Assembly (NCBI GenBank): GCA_943788815.1
Contig: CALSRS010000001.1
Coordinates: 1 to 64,000, forward strand
Length of the DNA stretch: 64,000 nucleotides
Source: an uncultured Gammaproteobacteria bacterium
GTDB lineage: Bacteria; Pseudomonadota; Gammaproteobacteria; Eutrophobiales; Eutrophobiaceae
Reading direction: 5' to 3'
The notes below the pieces were generated by a model, which searched no databases, was not told where the DNA came from, and worked only from the letters and a program-made list of their open reading frames with translations. The position numbers and the translations under genes are program-made. Shown here one piece after another: positions 26,068 through 32,551 of this stretch (position 1 is its first letter; each line of letters begins with the position of its first letter).

Positions 26068-27075
26068 TTATATATACTGTTCGAGAGCTTCGCATGGAAA
26101 TATTTTCTCAAGGGGGTAATAAGAACAAACTTCCTGGTAACAATAGGACAATAATCTTTTTTTTACATCATTTTTATAACTAACTGATTTACCTGAATGT
26201 TCAAAGGGTGATGTGATTAATTTATCTTCAGGGTAATAGGAAGAAAGTTTATTGAAATAATGAGCTGGAAGTCTAAATGAACCGATACTTACAGAATGTA
26301 TTTTCTCGATATCTAATTTATTGGCAACATCTGCAAAAAATGTTTGATATGTTTTTTCAAGATCGGTGTCATATATCAATGGGTCAAATCGTAAGCCAAT
26401 ATTCCAACCTTGATCTTGTAATTTTCTGGCCGAGGCTAATCTACTACTAATGTCTGGTGCTTTGTGATCCAGTGCTTTTGCTAATCTATCTGGTAATAAA
26501 CTATAGGCAATAACACAATTATTAATGGGTTCAATATCCAGCAATGAACGAATTTGAGTGCTTTTTGTCCTTAATTCCAGTAATAGATTGGGTATGTCTG
26601 ATATTTTTGGCAAAAGGTATTGCATAAAACCCGTTACTGGTTCCATAGCAAGGCTATCGCAGTCGTATCCGGAAAAAAAATGGCAAGATTTATCAGCATG
26701 TGAATTGCAAATTAATTTAATCTGCTGATAGAACTCCTCGTAATTTACAAATAAAACATAATTGGCAGATCGGTACATACCTTGCAAGAAACAGTAACGA
26801 CAATCATAAATACAATTTAACATATGTGAGAAATAGTAATTTAAATCCCCACCGATGCTGTACTCAGAGGGGGCTGGCATTACTAAATTTTTATGTTTAT
26901 GGGCTAAAATTAAACCAGGTGATTTTTTTTGTAATCTAAAATTTTGCGCCTTCCTGTTAAATACTTCTGAATAATGATCACAATCAATCACTGACGCATT
27001 ACTAAACTTATTGCAAATCTGAAGAGTTTTATGGTGTGACGCAACCTCTTTTTCTATGTATATACGATTTATCAT
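26068..27075 (-). CDS. spore photoproduct lyase-like radical SAM protein
   Basis: This 335-residue member of the SPL-family radical SAM enzymes contains the cluster motif C88-x3-C92-x2-C95 (NCIYDCRYC). A Cys (C139, in FSGYDCDSL) follows 44 residues after the last cluster Cys, close to the spacing of the catalytic H-donor Cys of Bacillus SPL as I remember it. The motif KTLQICNKF and PCEALEQYI at the end complete the family pattern. In Bacillus the enzyme repairs spore photoproduct; this Gram-negative organism does not sporulate, so another thymine lesion or a different substrate is implied. It is the last gene of a minus-strand operon with a nucleosidase and a GT2 enzyme. Confidence 0.85.
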   Translation of the reverse strand: MINRIYIEKEVASHHKTLQICNKFSNASVIDCDHYSEVFNRKAQNFRLQKKSPGLILAHKHKNLVMPAPSEYSIGGDLNYYFSHMLNCIYDCRYCFLQGMYRSANYVLFVNYEEFYQQIKLICNSHADKSCHFFSGYDCDSLAMEPVTGFMQYLLPKISDIPNLLLELRTKSTQIRSLLDIEPINNCVIAYSLLPDRLAKALDHKAPDISSRLASARKLQDQGWNIGLRFDPLIYDTDLEKTYQTFFADVANKLDIEKIHSVSIGSFRLPAHYFNKLSSYYPEDKLITSPFEHSGKSVSYKNDVKKRLLSYCYQEVCSYYPLEKIFPCEALEQYI

Positions 27076-27090
27076 GGATATTACTTGGTC

Positions 27091-27909
27091 TTAGTAAGAT
27101 ACAGGTGTCTTATCTAATGTGAACATTAGATAGTCTAGGATTTCCTGGGCATTTTTAAATTTATGTATGCGATTCATATCTGGTACTGTCGTGGGGAATA
27201 AAATTTCCCATTTTTTTAATATTTTTTTTAGTTGAATTTTGTGTGAGTGCGTGAAGTGCTGAATCGAAGTAAGCTTATTATAAAGATTTTCATCACATGT
27301 AATTTCTTTGATTTCAAGTGACAGTGTTTTAAGGCTGTCTATCAGGCGTGTTATTTCTTCAATATTATTTTCAATTAACGACTGGATAATACTTTCATTC
27401 AGTTGTTGATAATGAGTATGTTCATTGTCAGATATGATTTTTAGGCAATGCACTAATTCACATGTGGTAACTTTGCATGCTGAGTAATAAAATCCAGATG
27501 ACTCCATATCTAACATAAAACCATCTGGATATTGATCTGTTGCTGTGTCAATAGTCATGATTGGCAAATTCAGTAAACGTGACTTGAAAACTATTTGTGG
27601 AAACCAGGACTGCTTACTGCCAGTATCGATTATTTTGTTGGCGATAACGGGTGTGCCAAGGTCTAATGATTTGTGGCCAGCTATTCCAATATTTAACCAG
27701 CTTCGCATCTTTGATGATTGAAAAATGTTCATGGTGTGAATTACAGCGGCAGCTGAGGCTAGTTTTCCAATTCCACTGATAGTTAGTGTGATTGTTTGTG
27801 TGTTGTTCGCATAGGCTTCAAATATGTTCGAATTCTCAAGTTTTCTTAAATTGAAATGGCGAATTATGGGCTTGGCCTCCGCATGTAATGCAGTGATGAT
27901 GTGAGTCAT
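27091..27909 (-). CDS. nucleoside phosphorylase / MTA-SAH nucleosidase-like protein
   Basis: This 272-residue protein has an N-terminal phosphorylase fold: the TALHAEAKPI start, SGIGKLASAAAV, WLNIGIAGH, and the catalytic-region DMESSGFYYSA and ISDNEH. These match the nucleoside phosphorylase/MTA nucleosidase superfamily, with the DMES Glu and the following Asp in position. The C-terminal third (about residues 160-272) is a divergent helical extension. It begins in a 4-base ATGA overlap with the upstream GT2 gene and ends 15 bases before the SPL-like gene. A role in clearing 5'-deoxyadenosine from the SPL reaction is an inference from position alone. Confidence 0.82.
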   Translation of the reverse strand: MTHIITALHAEAKPIIRHFNLRKLENSNIFEAYANNTQTITLTISGIGKLASAAAVIHTMNIFQSSKMRSWLNIGIAGHKSLDLGTPVIANKIIDTGSKQSWFPQIVFKSRLLNLPIMTIDTATDQYPDGFMLDMESSGFYYSACKVTTCELVHCLKIISDNEHTHYQQLNESIIQSLIENNIEEITRLIDSLKTLSLEIKEITCDENLYNKLTSIQHFTHSHKIQLKKILKKWEILFPTTVPDMNRIHKFKNAQEILDYLMFTLDKTPVSY

Positions 27910-28736
27910 GGTTGGCTATCAGAATAAAGTTTTGCAAGCATTTTGAAATCTTCTGCGGCCACTTCATTATTGTGTTTTTGTGCCCCATTAATGTATATAT
28001 TGAGTTTATATTTTAATGTATCTATAGCGTTTTTTCTTTGTGTGTCCGAGAGTATGCCTGAATCAAGTAAGTTTGCTAATGATTTGATCCTGAATCGATC
28101 CATACCCCAGTATTTTGTAGATAATTGATCTGGATGGCCGCCGTATTTCTCAACAAGTTTCTCTTCGGCATAAAGCAAAGGGTATTTTGAACATATCCTT
28201 AACCACAGATCATAGTCCTCGCAAGCGGGCAGTGATTCATCAAAAGTTCCGATGCTGTTAAAAATATCTCTATGTATAATTACGGATGATGGCGAGATTA
28301 CACATAATGGGAGGCATTTTTTGAATATATATCCTCCATTTTTCTGATGCTTTTTTTTCTGATTTATTTGCTTGCCATTTTTAAACCATATTTCATTGCA
28401 ATGGCATATTTTGTATTCTGGGTTAATAGTTAATAGTTTAGTTTGTGTTTTTAGCTTGTTTTTATTCCACTTGTCATCACTATCCAGGAATGCAATCCAG
28501 TGATTTACAGAGTTTAAAATCCCATTATTTCTGGCAGAGCTGACACCAGAGTGGGGCTGGTGAATGTATCTGATACGAGGGTATTTATTCGCGATCATCT
28601 TATCTGTGTTATCTGATGAGCCATCATCTATGACTATGATTTCATTTGGCATATATGATTGGCTCAGCACGGAATCTAGTGCCTTGCAAAGTGATTCTCT
28701 CCTGTTGTAGGTAGGTATAATTACACTTATTTTCAT
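27906..28736 (-). CDS. family 2 glycosyltransferase
   Basis: This 276-residue GT-A fold enzyme begins with SVIIPTYNRRESL, then VIDDGSSDNT (near residues 36-44) and the DXD-like metal site FLDSDDKW (near residue 84). A later ACEDYDLWLRI segment supplies the conserved acid pair. No membrane segment is present, so it is likely cytoplasmic. The sugar donor and acceptor are unknown. It is the first gene of the operon with the nucleosidase and SPL-like enzyme and is divergent from the metallopeptidase 70 bases away. No glycan biosynthesis cluster surrounds it. Confidence 0.9.
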   Translation of the reverse strand: MKISVIIPTYNRRESLCKALDSVLSQSYMPNEIIVIDDGSSDNTDKMIANKYPRIRYIHQPHSGVSSARNNGILNSVNHWIAFLDSDDKWNKNKLKTQTKLLTINPEYKICHCNEIWFKNGKQINQKKKHQKNGGYIFKKCLPLCVISPSSVIIHRDIFNSIGTFDESLPACEDYDLWLRICSKYPLLYAEEKLVEKYGGHPDQLSTKYWGMDRFRIKSLANLLDSGILSDTQRKNAIDTLKYKLNIYINGAQKHNNEVAAEDFKMLAKLYSDSQP

Positions 28737-28806: not shown

Positions 28807-29841
28807 ATGCCATCTGTAAGAAGAAAAAAACCATATTGGAGTGGGTATAGTTATGACGAATTACTGGAACTTCGTTTTATTGATCTAAATATTAAAATAT
28901 CTGATACTTCGCTAATGTCGCATATATATCAATTATATGAAGAATTGGAATATCGTGGCATTAAATTCAAACCTCATTGCTGGTTATCTGATGAATGGTT
29001 TTCTCCCGATAAAATACCCGGCATTGCAATTCCATTCTATTTGGCACATCCAAAATTAGTAAAGCTTGAAGCTCAGCAGGTTTATGAGGTCGAAGGTGGA
29101 ACTGAAAGAAGTTGTATGAAATTACTTCGTCACGAGGCCGGGCATGCGATATCTACTGCATATCAATTAAGTAGAAGGAAAAAAATTAAGCGTGTATTTG
29201 GTGATTTTAATAAAAAATATCCTGATTATTATCGCCCAAATCCAAAAAGCAAGAATTATGTCATGCACCTGGACTGGTGGTATGCGCAAAGTCATCCTGC
29301 AGAAGATTTTGCGGAAACTTTTGCTGTATGGTTGAAACCAAGATCTCGTTGGCGGACAGAATACAAAGATTGGGCGGTGTTAAAAAAACTTAATTATATG
29401 GATGAGTTAATGGAAACTTTAGTTGATCGAAAACCACTTAATTCTAAAAGAAATTTTGTGGATCCCATTTCCAGGATGAAAAATACACTCAGACACCACT
29501 ATAACCGAAAACGAAGCCATTATGGTGTTAATGTTACTGAGGTTTATGATAATGAATTAATTCGTCTGTTCAGAAGAGATAATAGCATTGGAAAATATCA
29601 ACGATCAGCAGCAACATTTTTGAAAAATTATCACAATGAGTTATGTGATATCTGTGCCAGGGGGACCGGTATGTATCCCTATGATATTGCACAAATCCTG
29701 CAAAACATGATGGTCAGATGCAAAGAAATGAAATTAAAAATATCAAGATTTGATGAAGATTTAAAGACGGATGTGGCAATTTTTATTGTTTTGCAGAGTT
29801 TAAATTACAGGCAAAGAATAAATCATAGAATAGCAATATGA
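28807..29841 (+). CDS. putative zinc-binding metallopeptidase
   Basis: This 344-residue protein has an HEAGH zinc-binding motif at 109-113 and a further conserved acidic stretch SHPAEDFAETFAVWL at about 162-176, as in the uncharacterised 'putative zinc-binding metallopeptidase' family; HExxH and the downstream Glu would bind zinc. No signal peptide or anchor is visible, so it is probably cytoplasmic. The C-terminal half is basic and helical. The substrate is unknown. The stop overlaps the next gene's ATG by four bases (ATGA), so the peptidase and the ATP-grasp enzyme are made together. Confidence 0.85.
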   Translation: MPSVRRKKPYWSGYSYDELLELRFIDLNIKISDTSLMSHIYQLYEELEYRGIKFKPHCWLSDEWFSPDKIPGIAIPFYLAHPKLVKLEAQQVYEVEGGTERSCMKLLRHEAGHAISTAYQLSRRKKIKRVFGDFNKKYPDYYRPNPKSKNYVMHLDWWYAQSHPAEDFAETFAVWLKPRSRWRTEYKDWAVLKKLNYMDELMETLVDRKPLNSKRNFVDPISRMKNTLRHHYNRKRSHYGVNVTEVYDNELIRLFRRDNSIGKYQRSAATFLKNYHNELCDICARGTGMYPYDIAQILQNMMVRCKEMKLKISRFDEDLKTDVAIFIVLQSLNYRQRINHRIAI

Positions 29842-30866
29842 ATATGTTGAAGATACTCGTGTTAATGCATGAAGATCTGGTTCCACCAGATTCCATGAAA
29901 GGATTTGCTGACAAAGAAATTGTTGAATGGAAGACAGAGTATGATGTTGTATCAAGTTTAAAGGCGATGGGGCATGAAGTTCAACCAGTAGGTGTCTTTG
30001 ATGACCTGGGCGCAATCAGGCGTGCCATACAAGAATTTGAACCGGATATTGCGTTTAATATTCTTGAAGAATTTCACGGAAATTCACTGTATGACTATCA
30101 TGTGGCAAGTTATCTTGAGCTTTTGAAATTACCTTACACAGGATGTAATCCACGTGGCTTAATGATTGCACATGACAAGGCATTAAGTAAGAAGTTGTTT
30201 ACATTTCATAGAATAAGCACACCAAAATTTATTGTTTTTCCTATGGGTGAAAAAATTAAAATACCAAAGTCCATACGATATCCGCTCATTATAAAATCAT
30301 TAGTTGAAGAAGGCTCGTATGGATTGTCACAGGCGTCCGTTGTAAATACGCAAGATAAAATGATTGAGCGAATTGAATATTTACACTCAAAATTAAATAC
30401 ACATGTTCTTGCTGAAGAATATATCGAGGGAAGGGAAATTTATATTTCTATTATTGGGAATTCCAGGCTGCAAACTTTTCCGTTGATAGAGCTGGAGTTT
30501 GGTGAGATGCCAGATGATGCTCACAAAATTGCAACATCAAAAGTGAAATGGGACTGGCGATATCAAAAACAACATAAAATCAACCTTGTTGCTGCCAGTA
30601 ACCTTGATGCCAAGCTGATTAAAAAACTGTATTCAGTTGGTAAGCGTATCTACAAAATACTGGGGCTTAGTGGGTACGCCAGAATAGATTTGAGATTAAC
30701 CGAAGACAACGCGATATATGTGCTCGAAGCAAATGCGAATCCAGATATCGGCTATGGTGAGGAAACGTCAACAGCTGCAGATCTTTCAGGACTCAATTAT
30801 GAACAATTGTTACAAAAAATAATCAATCTTGGCTTAAGTTATAAACCGGAGACAGCTCGAATTTAG
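29838..30866 (+). CDS. ATP-grasp ligase related to D-Ala-D-Ala ligase
   Basis: This 342-residue protein has a D-ala ligase-like N-domain and an ATP-grasp core. KPLIIKSLVEEGSYGLSQ is the glycine-rich ATP loop, AEEYIEGREIYISIIG follows, and the metal site is ARIDLRLTEDNAIYVLEANANPDIG, with Asp, Glu and Asn in the standard order. True Ddl proteins carry a specific set of motifs that I did not match fully, and cell-wall genes are absent around it. The substrate, an amino acid or peptide, is therefore not assigned. It is translationally coupled to the metallopeptidase and its 3' end overlaps the converging gene by four bases. Confidence 0.88.
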   Translation: MNMLKILVLMHEDLVPPDSMKGFADKEIVEWKTEYDVVSSLKAMGHEVQPVGVFDDLGAIRRAIQEFEPDIAFNILEEFHGNSLYDYHVASYLELLKLPYTGCNPRGLMIAHDKALSKKLFTFHRISTPKFIVFPMGEKIKIPKSIRYPLIIKSLVEEGSYGLSQASVVNTQDKMIERIEYLHSKLNTHVLAEEYIEGREIYISIIGNSRLQTFPLIELEFGEMPDDAHKIATSKVKWDWRYQKQHKINLVAASNLDAKLIKKLYSVGKRIYKILGLSGYARIDLRLTEDNAIYVLEANANPDIGYGEETSTAADLSGLNYEQLLQKIINLGLSYKPETARI

Positions 30867-32551
30867 ATAGTATTCTCAAGCCTGTTAGCAAAGCCGAGTA
30901 TACCTGCTTTAAGTTTTTCATGTTGATTGAGCAAGTTCGCATATTTTAATTCATCATGCCCACCCCCAGCAGTAATGATATCTGCAACTTTCCTTCTCTC
31001 ACTTGTTGGCCAGTATCTTATACCAGATATATTGTTAATTAATGGGGACCAACGTACCCAACTGGCTTTTTGCAATGGTGGTAATTTTTTCTTGGAGTTG
31101 CACTTAGTCAACTGCAATGCTTGCTGTATACACAAGTCTATCTCTTTTTCTTTTTCAGCACTAAAGGCTTTAGATAGTCTACGATTTAAACCCAGTGGGA
31201 TAAATCCAATATCGCCTGTGTTGTTATGATTTTGATAATTATCATTGATGTCAAAATACATATTTACAGACGCTAGTGTATTTAAGGTCGAAAGGCTGGT
31301 GCGGTAGTCCGGATTAGATGAGATTTTTTTAATTTCTTTTTTGACTAGGTTGTGCATTTTTTTATCTCTGGGTCGAAATCCTAATTTGTAATAAAACCAC
31401 CAAACACCAGACAACAAGCCTTCCTTGTTTTCGTGTCCAAGCTGGTAGGGGTCAAGAATAAACGTATCCACATTGAATAGCTGATGAGCGACGGCAAGGT
31501 TTCGAATAAAATATTTCGATGTTTCACCACCTCGAAATGGCGAGAATAGGTTAAATGCTATCTCCGCATTGTGATATAGATTGATGATTTGAAAATAACC
31601 TACCGGCATGCCATTCCTGGTATTTAAGAAACCGTATGTGGAATGGAGTAAATAGCGTCTGTCAGGCACCATGCTATTGCAATTTAACTGATGTCCATCG
31701 TCGAATGAAATTAATCTGACATCAGCTGGGTTTCCATATGAAAATGCATCAAGGTCTCTTTCATGAGTCAACATGGTTTTGCGCGCCAGATCGATAAACT
31801 TTATGCCATCTGATGCATTAATTTTTTTATGTGTAAATTTGATAGTCGTAAGTGATGTAGGTAATTGAGGTCGTTGCCTGTCAAATGCTTTTTTCTGGTA
31901 ATGGACTTTTTTGCCTGTAATTTTGGTATTGGCAATATTTGGAGTATTGTGCGCGGCTTTTAATTGATATGTCATATTGATGTCATCATGAATGACTTCG
32001 CGTTCACGGTCATTTTTGAATGCTTTTTGCAGGCGATTGACAATGTAAGCGGCATCAGTCTCTCTTGAGTTTTTTAGCAACTCAACCCATTCTTGTGGTG
32101 ATAAATCAAGTTCATCCATAGCTCCAATTTCCGGTATTGTCAGTAAAAGAGGAAGTATAGTGGTGAGTTTTTCAGGCTCTTCTAGTTCATCCCAAATGAT
32201 GGACAGGGAATTTGGGCATTGATCAGCCAACCAGCAGGCCATAGGCCAAAAGAATTGAAAATGAATGTTTGTGCCAGCTATGCCGGTATTGGTAAGATCA
32301 TTTTTAAATTTCTGCAAGTCAGTTCGTTTTGAAAATGATGCAAGCATATGTGAAGTCTGCCTAAATATTTCGTAGTTATCTGGAAATGCATATAGAAAAT
32401 TTAAGACATCATGAAACCGTTGAACTTGCTGTGGGGTGCTGAAGTTTTGAGTTTTTAATGCGTTTAATAATTCAATCTTTTGCAGGGTAATATTTTGATT
32501 GAAGTTGGCCTTGATTTTTTCCAGGCGTTTTAAAAGGTGAATTGATTTCAT
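30863..32551 (-). CDS. uncharacterised protein with GNAT-like C-terminal part, coupled to asnS
   Basis: I do not recognise this 562-residue protein with certainty. The first 200 residues are helical and basic. The middle (from about residue 255) resembles an acyltransferase-like fold: YLLHSTYGFLN, GMPVGYFQIINLYHNAEIAFNLFSPFRGGETSKYFIRNLAVAHQLF and an FDINDNY segment. The C-terminal part is charged, and no transmembrane segment is obvious. The start ATG directly follows the asnS stop (TAAATG), so translation is coupled to asnS. It converges with the ATP-grasp gene, and together these three look like one module. Function is not assigned. Confidence 0.6.
   Translation of the reverse strand: MKSIHLLKRLEKIKANFNQNITLQKIELLNALKTQNFSTPQQVQRFHDVLNFLYAFPDNYEIFRQTSHMLASFSKRTDLQKFKNDLTNTGIAGTNIHFQFFWPMACWLADQCPNSLSIIWDELEEPEKLTTILPLLLTIPEIGAMDELDLSPQEWVELLKNSRETDAAYIVNRLQKAFKNDREREVIHDDINMTYQLKAAHNTPNIANTKITGKKVHYQKKAFDRQRPQLPTSLTTIKFTHKKINASDGIKFIDLARKTMLTHERDLDAFSYGNPADVRLISFDDGHQLNCNSMVPDRRYLLHSTYGFLNTRNGMPVGYFQIINLYHNAEIAFNLFSPFRGGETSKYFIRNLAVAHQLFNVDTFILDPYQLGHENKEGLLSGVWWFYYKLGFRPRDKKMHNLVKKEIKKISSNPDYRTSLSTLNTLASVNMYFDINDNYQNHNNTGDIGFIPLGLNRRLSKAFSAEKEKEIDLCIQQALQLTKCNSKKKLPPLQKASWVRWSPLINNISGIRYWPTSERRKVADIITAGGGHDELKYANLLNQHEKLKAGILGFANRLENTI

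Follow-up and report, generated by a model that had tools for sequence, protein, structure and literature searches.

A zinc peptidase and a Ddl-like ATP-grasp ligase encoded as a two-gene unit in distant bacteria: a possible make-and-unmake pair

Introduction

In the genome of an uncultured gammaproteobacterium of the family Eutrophobiaceae, a gene for a zinc metallopeptidase of the Peptidase_Mx type overlaps a gene for an ATP-grasp ligase, and a large third gene converges on the two. The question that this locus raises is which of the three genes belong together and what they do. The window analysed here is a stretch of 64,000 nucleotides, positions 1 to 64,000 of contig CALSRS010000001.1 (assembly GCA_943788815.1). 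The first-pass annotation of this window had combined the three genes in one module that makes or modifies peptides, perhaps drawing on the asparaginyl-tRNA pool. A peptide-making or peptide-trimming role is still the best reading for the peptidase-ligase pair, but the third gene, which encodes a protein of 562 residues, falls outside it. Most likely, the pair consists of a ligase and its cognate peptidase on one pathway; that this two-gene operon encodes a cytosolic ligase and a zinc peptidase acting on the same peptide bond or end, so that the product is both made and unmade, we regard as about an even bet.

Linkage of the peptidase and the ligase across bacteria

The peptidase and the ligase are strongly supported as a tight two-gene unit. 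A scan for the peptidase with one genome per species yields 50 loci from 49 genomes (L020 and L051 come from one genome), mainly from Planctomycetota, with 4 from Gemmatimonadota, 1 from Nitrospira and several from Gammaproteobacteria, the taxa being those of the record titles. An ATP-grasp gene lies downstream of the peptidase gene, on the same strand, in 43 of the 50 loci, including two (L014 and L018) where the contig carries just 63 ligase residues. Judging from the inferred starts, the two genes overlap by 4 bases in 24 of these 43 loci and are separated by 2 to 231 bases in 18. The loci were counted with tblastn; a simple open reading frame (ORF) caller overlooked the peptidase in seven of them (L019, L020, L024, L040, L044, L045 and L051), and the gene fusions that appeared in the ORF lists of L040 and L044 proved to be artefacts of reading upstream in the ligase frame.

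The remaining seven contigs stop inside the peptidase gene (four) or 166 to 308 bases past it (three). When the genomes of these seven loci and of L043, where the two genes lie far apart, were searched for the ligase, a strong match was found in seven of the eight. For five of the seven cut loci, the ligase is encoded on a separate contig of the genome, whose end lies 96 to 945 bases from the upstream side of the ligase gene, which fits an assembly break between the two genes. In the genome of L051, the ligase match is the one already counted in L020; the peptidase stretches of these two contigs, which belong to one assembly, overlap and are 96% identical, reflecting either a second copy or a mixed assembly.

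Co-occurrence of the two genes among relatives gives the same picture. Of 116 relatives, 20 have a match to the peptidase, near full length (at least 412 bits) in 14 and short and distant (at most 34.1 bits) in the other 6. The ligase profile reaches at least 483 bits in 13 genomes, the next best score being 168, and all 13 are among the 14 peptidase genomes; in the 14th (G036), a contig end cuts the ligase off after its first 83 residues. The probability of such co-occurrence (13 of 14 in 116) is p = 2.5e-16, uncorrected for kinship. Of 299 sampled genomes of the phylum, 37 show a peptidase match, and the 6 near-full-length ones belong to the present genome and to 5 genomes of another class, in each of which the ligase adjoins the peptidase. 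The 43 linked loci and the full ligase in 13 of the 14 peptidase-bearing relatives bear out the earlier view that the peptidase and the ATP-grasp protein belong together. Peptidase and ligase distances are also correlated (r = 0.91 for 41 loci, with 0 of 2000 permutations as high), which mostly reflects shared descent.

The ligase

The ligase shares with Ddl the sequence family and the catalytic residues, but differs from it in changed substrate-binding positions, in scores below the curated cut-offs and in coexisting with a separate Ddl in the same genome. Its top Pfam match is PF07478 (Dala_Dala_lig_C; 87.9 bits, cut-off 24), compared with 25 bits (cut-off 21) for the RimK-type PF08443, which covers residues 111-199. 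The closest sequence matches are Ddl proteins, and the best 25 of the 42 NCBIfam matches are all Ddl-type, Van-type or related, far under their cut-offs: the best curated Ddl score is 134.2 against a cut-off of 243, and TIGR01205 gives 108.6 against 245.65. The genome's own Ddl is encoded on another contig, among murC-, murB-, ftsQ- and ftsA-like genes (named by eye).

The residues common to this Ddl and the ligase include K114, K118, K153, S160, E200, K237, R282, D284, E297 and N299, each of them invariant in 24 of 24 aligned family members; the ATP-grasp catalytic residues among them (K114, K153, E200, R282, D284, E297 and N299) are intact. The substrate-binding positions differ. Ser287-Leu288 of the genome's own Ddl, a pair that in Ddl enzymes binds the carboxylate of the second D-Ala, correspond to Glu or Asp at both columns in all 24 family members, and the position of Tyr222 of this Ddl is occupied by Trp (19), Phe (2) or His (3). 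The changed Ser-Leu and Tyr positions speak against a D-Ala ligase and suggest a second substrate that would carry a positive charge near the acidic pair. Hydropathy reveals neither a hydrophobic signal nor a membrane segment in the ligase.

The acidic pair is absent from two other ligases that were compared, one from each of two loci with gene arrays of their own. In L156 (3799-9557), a lysine 2,3-aminomutase-like gene, two tandem Ddl-like ligase genes and a gene for a histone-deacetylase-type plus GNAT protein stand in a row, possibly a beta-lysine peptide pathway. In L158 (4174-7966), a fusion of a methyltransferase with a Ddl-like ligase is divergent from a histone-deacetylase-type gene.

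The peptidase

The first protein of the pair scores above the Pfam gathering cut-off for Peptidase_Mx (PF15887; 38.8 bits, cut-off 27) and shares the HExxH and SHPxEDxAE motifs with this family. It differs in that no zinc ribbon is matched, in having a long C-terminal part of its own and in belonging to a separate clade (at least 412 bits, against at most 34.1 for other matches); the family includes zinc-ribbon forms (COG4307). Conservation was assessed with 24 of the 51 available homologue sequences, in all of which the HExxH motif is complete and the downstream acidic residues are present (Table 1). By analogy with zincin relatives, E166 is the likely third zinc ligand. The peptidase contains no hydrophobic N-terminal segment or export signal detectable by hydropathy, and so is likely to be cytosolic.

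The structure model of the peptidase has a mean predicted local distance difference test (pLDDT) score of 85. VIA-align matches it to the lethal-factor catalytic core (Z 9.3), to Pro-Pro endopeptidase (Z 7.7, residues about 27-208) and to a solved 'putative zinc-binding metallo-peptidase' (Z 5.9), Z values below 8 being common according to the tool's own warning. In this model, the core (about residues 27-208) weakly resembles a zincin of the general lethal-factor and Pro-Pro-endopeptidase shape. The likeness to lethal factor is not taken as a sign of toxicity: the protein has 344 residues, lacks an export signal as judged by hydropathy and gave no match to a delivery domain.

Table 1. Features of the locus, in window coordinates
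Feature	Position	Strand	Remarks
Peptidase_Mx-type zinc metallopeptidase gene, 344 residues	28807..29841	+	ORF; PF15887; predicted cytosolic
HEAGH zinc motif, peptidase residues 109-113	29131..29145	+	H109, E110 and H113 present in each of the 24 aligned homologues
SHPAEDFAE, peptidase residues 162-170	29290..29316	+	H163, P164, E166, D167 and E170 invariant in 24 of 24
ATGA overlap, peptidase stop and ligase start	29838..29841	+	Read from the sequence
Ddl-like ATP-grasp ligase gene, 342 residues	29838..30866	+	Distinct from the housekeeping Ddl
Acidic pair E308-E309 of the ligase	30759..30764	+	Ser-Leu in the genome's own Ddl; each of the 24 family members has acidic residues at the two columns
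562-residue protein gene	30863..32551	-	No family assigned; judged not to be part of the pair
asnS, housekeeping asparaginyl-tRNA synthetase, 461 residues	32552..33937	-	Not part of the pair

Search for further partners

No pair-specific third gene family is common to the pair loci across lineages. Clustering of the neighbouring ORFs shows that the flanks are kept among close relatives only, barring large, widespread families, ABC-transporter ATPases and response regulators among them (names assigned by eye), and Pfam scans of 10 neighbours of the pair from six lineages gave ten unlike results. Among 817 ORFs of 20-120 residues located within 700 bp of the 50 pairs, no short precursor common across lineages was seen in the 12 largest groups, which comprise at most 9 loci each, all from close relatives; this search covered the flanks only, with the intergenic gap and farther sites outside it. 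With respect to defence, none of the three proteins has a PADLOC match at E 0.01.

Some neighbours are confined to one lineage, such as a Fic gene (L004), a gloB-like gene and, by eye, an FmdB-like gene (both in L115-L117) and peptidase genes of the M14 and M42 types. The latter flank the pair in genome G033 (L119, 6610-11399), one M14 carboxypeptidase-like and the other M42 aminopeptidase-like.

A possible make-and-unmake pair

In the reading in which the two enzymes make and unmake one product, the ATP-grasp ligase would activate a carboxylate as an acyl phosphate and join it to an amine, probably a positively charged one. The peptidase, synthesized in step with the ligase through translational coupling, would cut the ligase product or its precursor, and the product level would be set by the balance between making and unmaking. 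The ATGA overlap points to balanced synthesis of the two proteins. A substrate common to both enzymes, the way in which each reaction runs, the translational coupling and the cationic partner are inferred.

Undoing of the ligase reaction is favoured over preparation of the substrate because a matched ligase-peptidase pair with this logic is known, namely RimK-RimB. RimB is reported to remove the glutamates that the ATP-grasp ligase RimK adds to the ribosomal protein RpsF, and also to stimulate poly-glutamate synthesis by RimK (PMC11957791; PMC12239564). In both cases, a cytosolic ATP-grasp ligase (here, cytosolic by prediction) is encoded together with a peptidase. However, RimB is retropepsin-like whereas the present peptidase is a Peptidase_Mx zincin, and the present ligase is nearest to Ddl rather than to RimK.

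Another point of likeness comes from clusters of CP_ATPgrasp, Alpha-E and DUF2126 genes, where a Peptidase_Mx gene also stands beside ATP-grasp amidoligase genes. In L158 (8921-14100), a zinc-ribbon Peptidase_Mx gene comes after CP_ATPgrasp and Alpha-E genes, with a DUF2126 'putative amidoligase' gene opposite to it. The ligases of these clusters differ in being circularly permuted and accompanied by Alpha-E and DUF2126, and the window contains no match to the four L158 cluster proteins at E 1e-5.

Several observations weigh against the make-and-unmake reading. With a flank of about 1.5 kb, an Alpha-E match is found beside the peptidase in just 4 of 29 distant loci (L075, L076, L077 and L086; L075 and L158 come from one genome) and in none of the other 25. 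The peptidase and ligase genes of L043 are 3,283 bases apart, and the genome search detected no ligase in G700, the genome of L037. The fold matches of the peptidase are weak (Foldseek E of at least 0.31), and its model is less sure in the C-terminal third. No assay of either enzyme of the clade was found in the literature, and co-occurrence carries no information on which of the two enzymes acts first.

A narrower version of the make-and-unmake reading is reversible tagging or capping, in which the Ddl-like ligase would attach a cationic amine or a basic amino acid to the end of a protein or to a peptide and the dedicated Peptidase_Mx would remove it, in at least four phyla by record titles. 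Such a system would be a separately arisen zinc-peptidase counterpart of RimK-RimB. This version is tentative, and we would sooner expect it to fail than to hold.

It appears unlikely that the two enzymes work in succession without any undoing, the end exposed when the peptidase has cleaved a protein or peptide being extended by a residue that the ligase attaches. The peptidase gene does come first in every linked locus, but gene order alone is poor support for the order of reactions. Graspetide-like ATP-grasp branches 7 and 8 are likewise linked to peptidases, with no detectable precursor (PMC8939145). Against this reading, no short precursor ORF common across lineages was found in the 700 bp on either side of the present pair.

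Similarly improbable is a small-molecule pathway in which the ligase would make a dipeptide-like solute or cofactor that the peptidase recycles. Neither protein has a hydrophobic signal or membrane segment, related ATP-grasp genes adjoin lysine 2,3-aminomutase, acetyltransferase and histone-deacetylase-type genes (L156 and L158), and the G033 pair is located between M14-type and M42-type peptidase genes. No pathway gene, however, is linked to the pair across lineages, and the G033 arrangement is limited to one lineage and adjoins fatty-acid and biotin genes. Finally, a van-like function, with a D-Ala-D-Ala or D-Ala-D-Lac type ligase and a peptidase acting on the cell wall, would agree with the Ddl proteins being the best sequence matches of the ligase but is very improbable in view of the best 25 of 42 NCBIfam matches scoring far under the cut-offs (at best 134, where 243 is needed), the changed Ser-Leu and Tyr positions, the genome's own Ddl among murC-, murB-, ftsQ- and ftsA-like genes and the peptidase lacking an export signal by hydropathy.

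If the make-and-unmake reading is true, the pair would be a second ligase-peptidase pairing, drawn from an unrelated peptidase stock and present in distant phyla, which would suggest that amide bonds are generally made and unmade by such paired enzymes. ATP-grasp ligases with a dedicated peptidase can target the ribosome (RimK-RimB) or influence cell shape and stress tolerance (rlo genes; PMC12239564); for the rlo genes, the defect caused by deleting the peptidase is reported to be rescued when the ligase is deleted too (PMC12239564). The pair also offers a functional entry point to two families that have been little described. The literature searched contained no published description of it, although an earlier mention may exist.

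The 562-residue protein and asnS

The local layout given in the first-pass annotation agrees with the coordinates, both for the ATGA overlap of the pair (29838-29841) and for the 562-residue gene, which converges on the ligase gene with a 4-base overlap (30863-30866) and starts right after asnS, the asnS stop and its own start reading TAAATG on the minus strand (bases 32554-32549). The module of three genes that was built on this layout did not survive the neighbourhood survey, in which the genes are seldom found together.

The 562-residue protein has no Pfam match above cut-off. Neither its eight-row profile nor the consensus of that profile matches any PDB sequence, and the two-row profile gives just three PDB matches, at E 0.078 or worse. 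The two-row structure model (mean pLDDT 34.9) is too poor for a fold search. An acyltransferase function, suggested in the first-pass annotation by an acyltransferase-like middle, may still apply to the protein by itself, and its stretch SGVWWFYYKLGFRP may resemble the C-terminal end of GNAT proteins.

Among 369 genomes of the class, a single-sequence search detects this protein in the present genome only. The two-row profile finds it in 8 of the 116 relatives, and the eight-row profile recovers these 8 again among 53 genomes of the order, all from a single family. In the 53 family genomes, the pair is present in 10, the 562-residue gene in 8 and both in 4 (uncorrected p = 0.033), an overlap driven by one genus, outside of which a single genome is shared (p = 0.48). 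The gene adjoins the pair only in the present genome and its close relative G370 (locus L003), lies on a different contig from the pair in G369 and G388, and occurs without the pair in G372, G378, G390 and G398. Conversely, it is absent from 6 of the 10 pair-bearing genomes of the family, and its profile has no match in all 4 pair-bearing genomes searched outside the family.

The neighbours of the 562-residue gene vary as well. It follows asnS in 4 of 8 genomes (the present one, G370, G369 and G372), all of the same genus, and elsewhere is located near pdxJ and a metallo-beta-lactamase-fold gene (G398), near similar genes (G390) or near a thiolase gene (G388), the G378 locus being cut. Because the gene is seldom found with the pair and has varied neighbours, its position next to the pair is best explained by local gene order. 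Despite its adjacency to the pair in two genomes and the uncorrected overlap in four, an acyltransferase partner of the peptidase and the ligase is thus hardly to be sought in this protein. The link to asnS is confined to the same genus, and among the 50 peptidase contigs asnS was found on L003 only; nothing here speaks for the proposed use of the asparaginyl-tRNA pool.

Two candidate connections were rejected. A common chromosomal region that would join the 562-residue gene (L109 and L112) to the pair (L115-L117) is not indicated by the flanking metallo-beta-lactamase-fold genes, which are about 27-33% alike and are paralogues. By eye, the convergent 532-residue gene in L004 encodes an ankyrin-like protein, and the profile of the 562-residue protein gives no match to it. 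In G390 (L112, 8313-9980), the homologue of the 562-residue protein has an in-frame TGA about two dozen codons before the homologous end.

Neighbouring genes

Upstream of the pair, on the minus strand, three tightly packed genes (26068-28736) encode a radical SAM protein that resembles spore photoproduct lyase (CxxxCxxC, by eye), a nucleosidase-like protein that barely exceeds the Pfam cut-off and a glycosyltransferase of family 2; their order is kept in L003, at 63, 47 and 64% identity.

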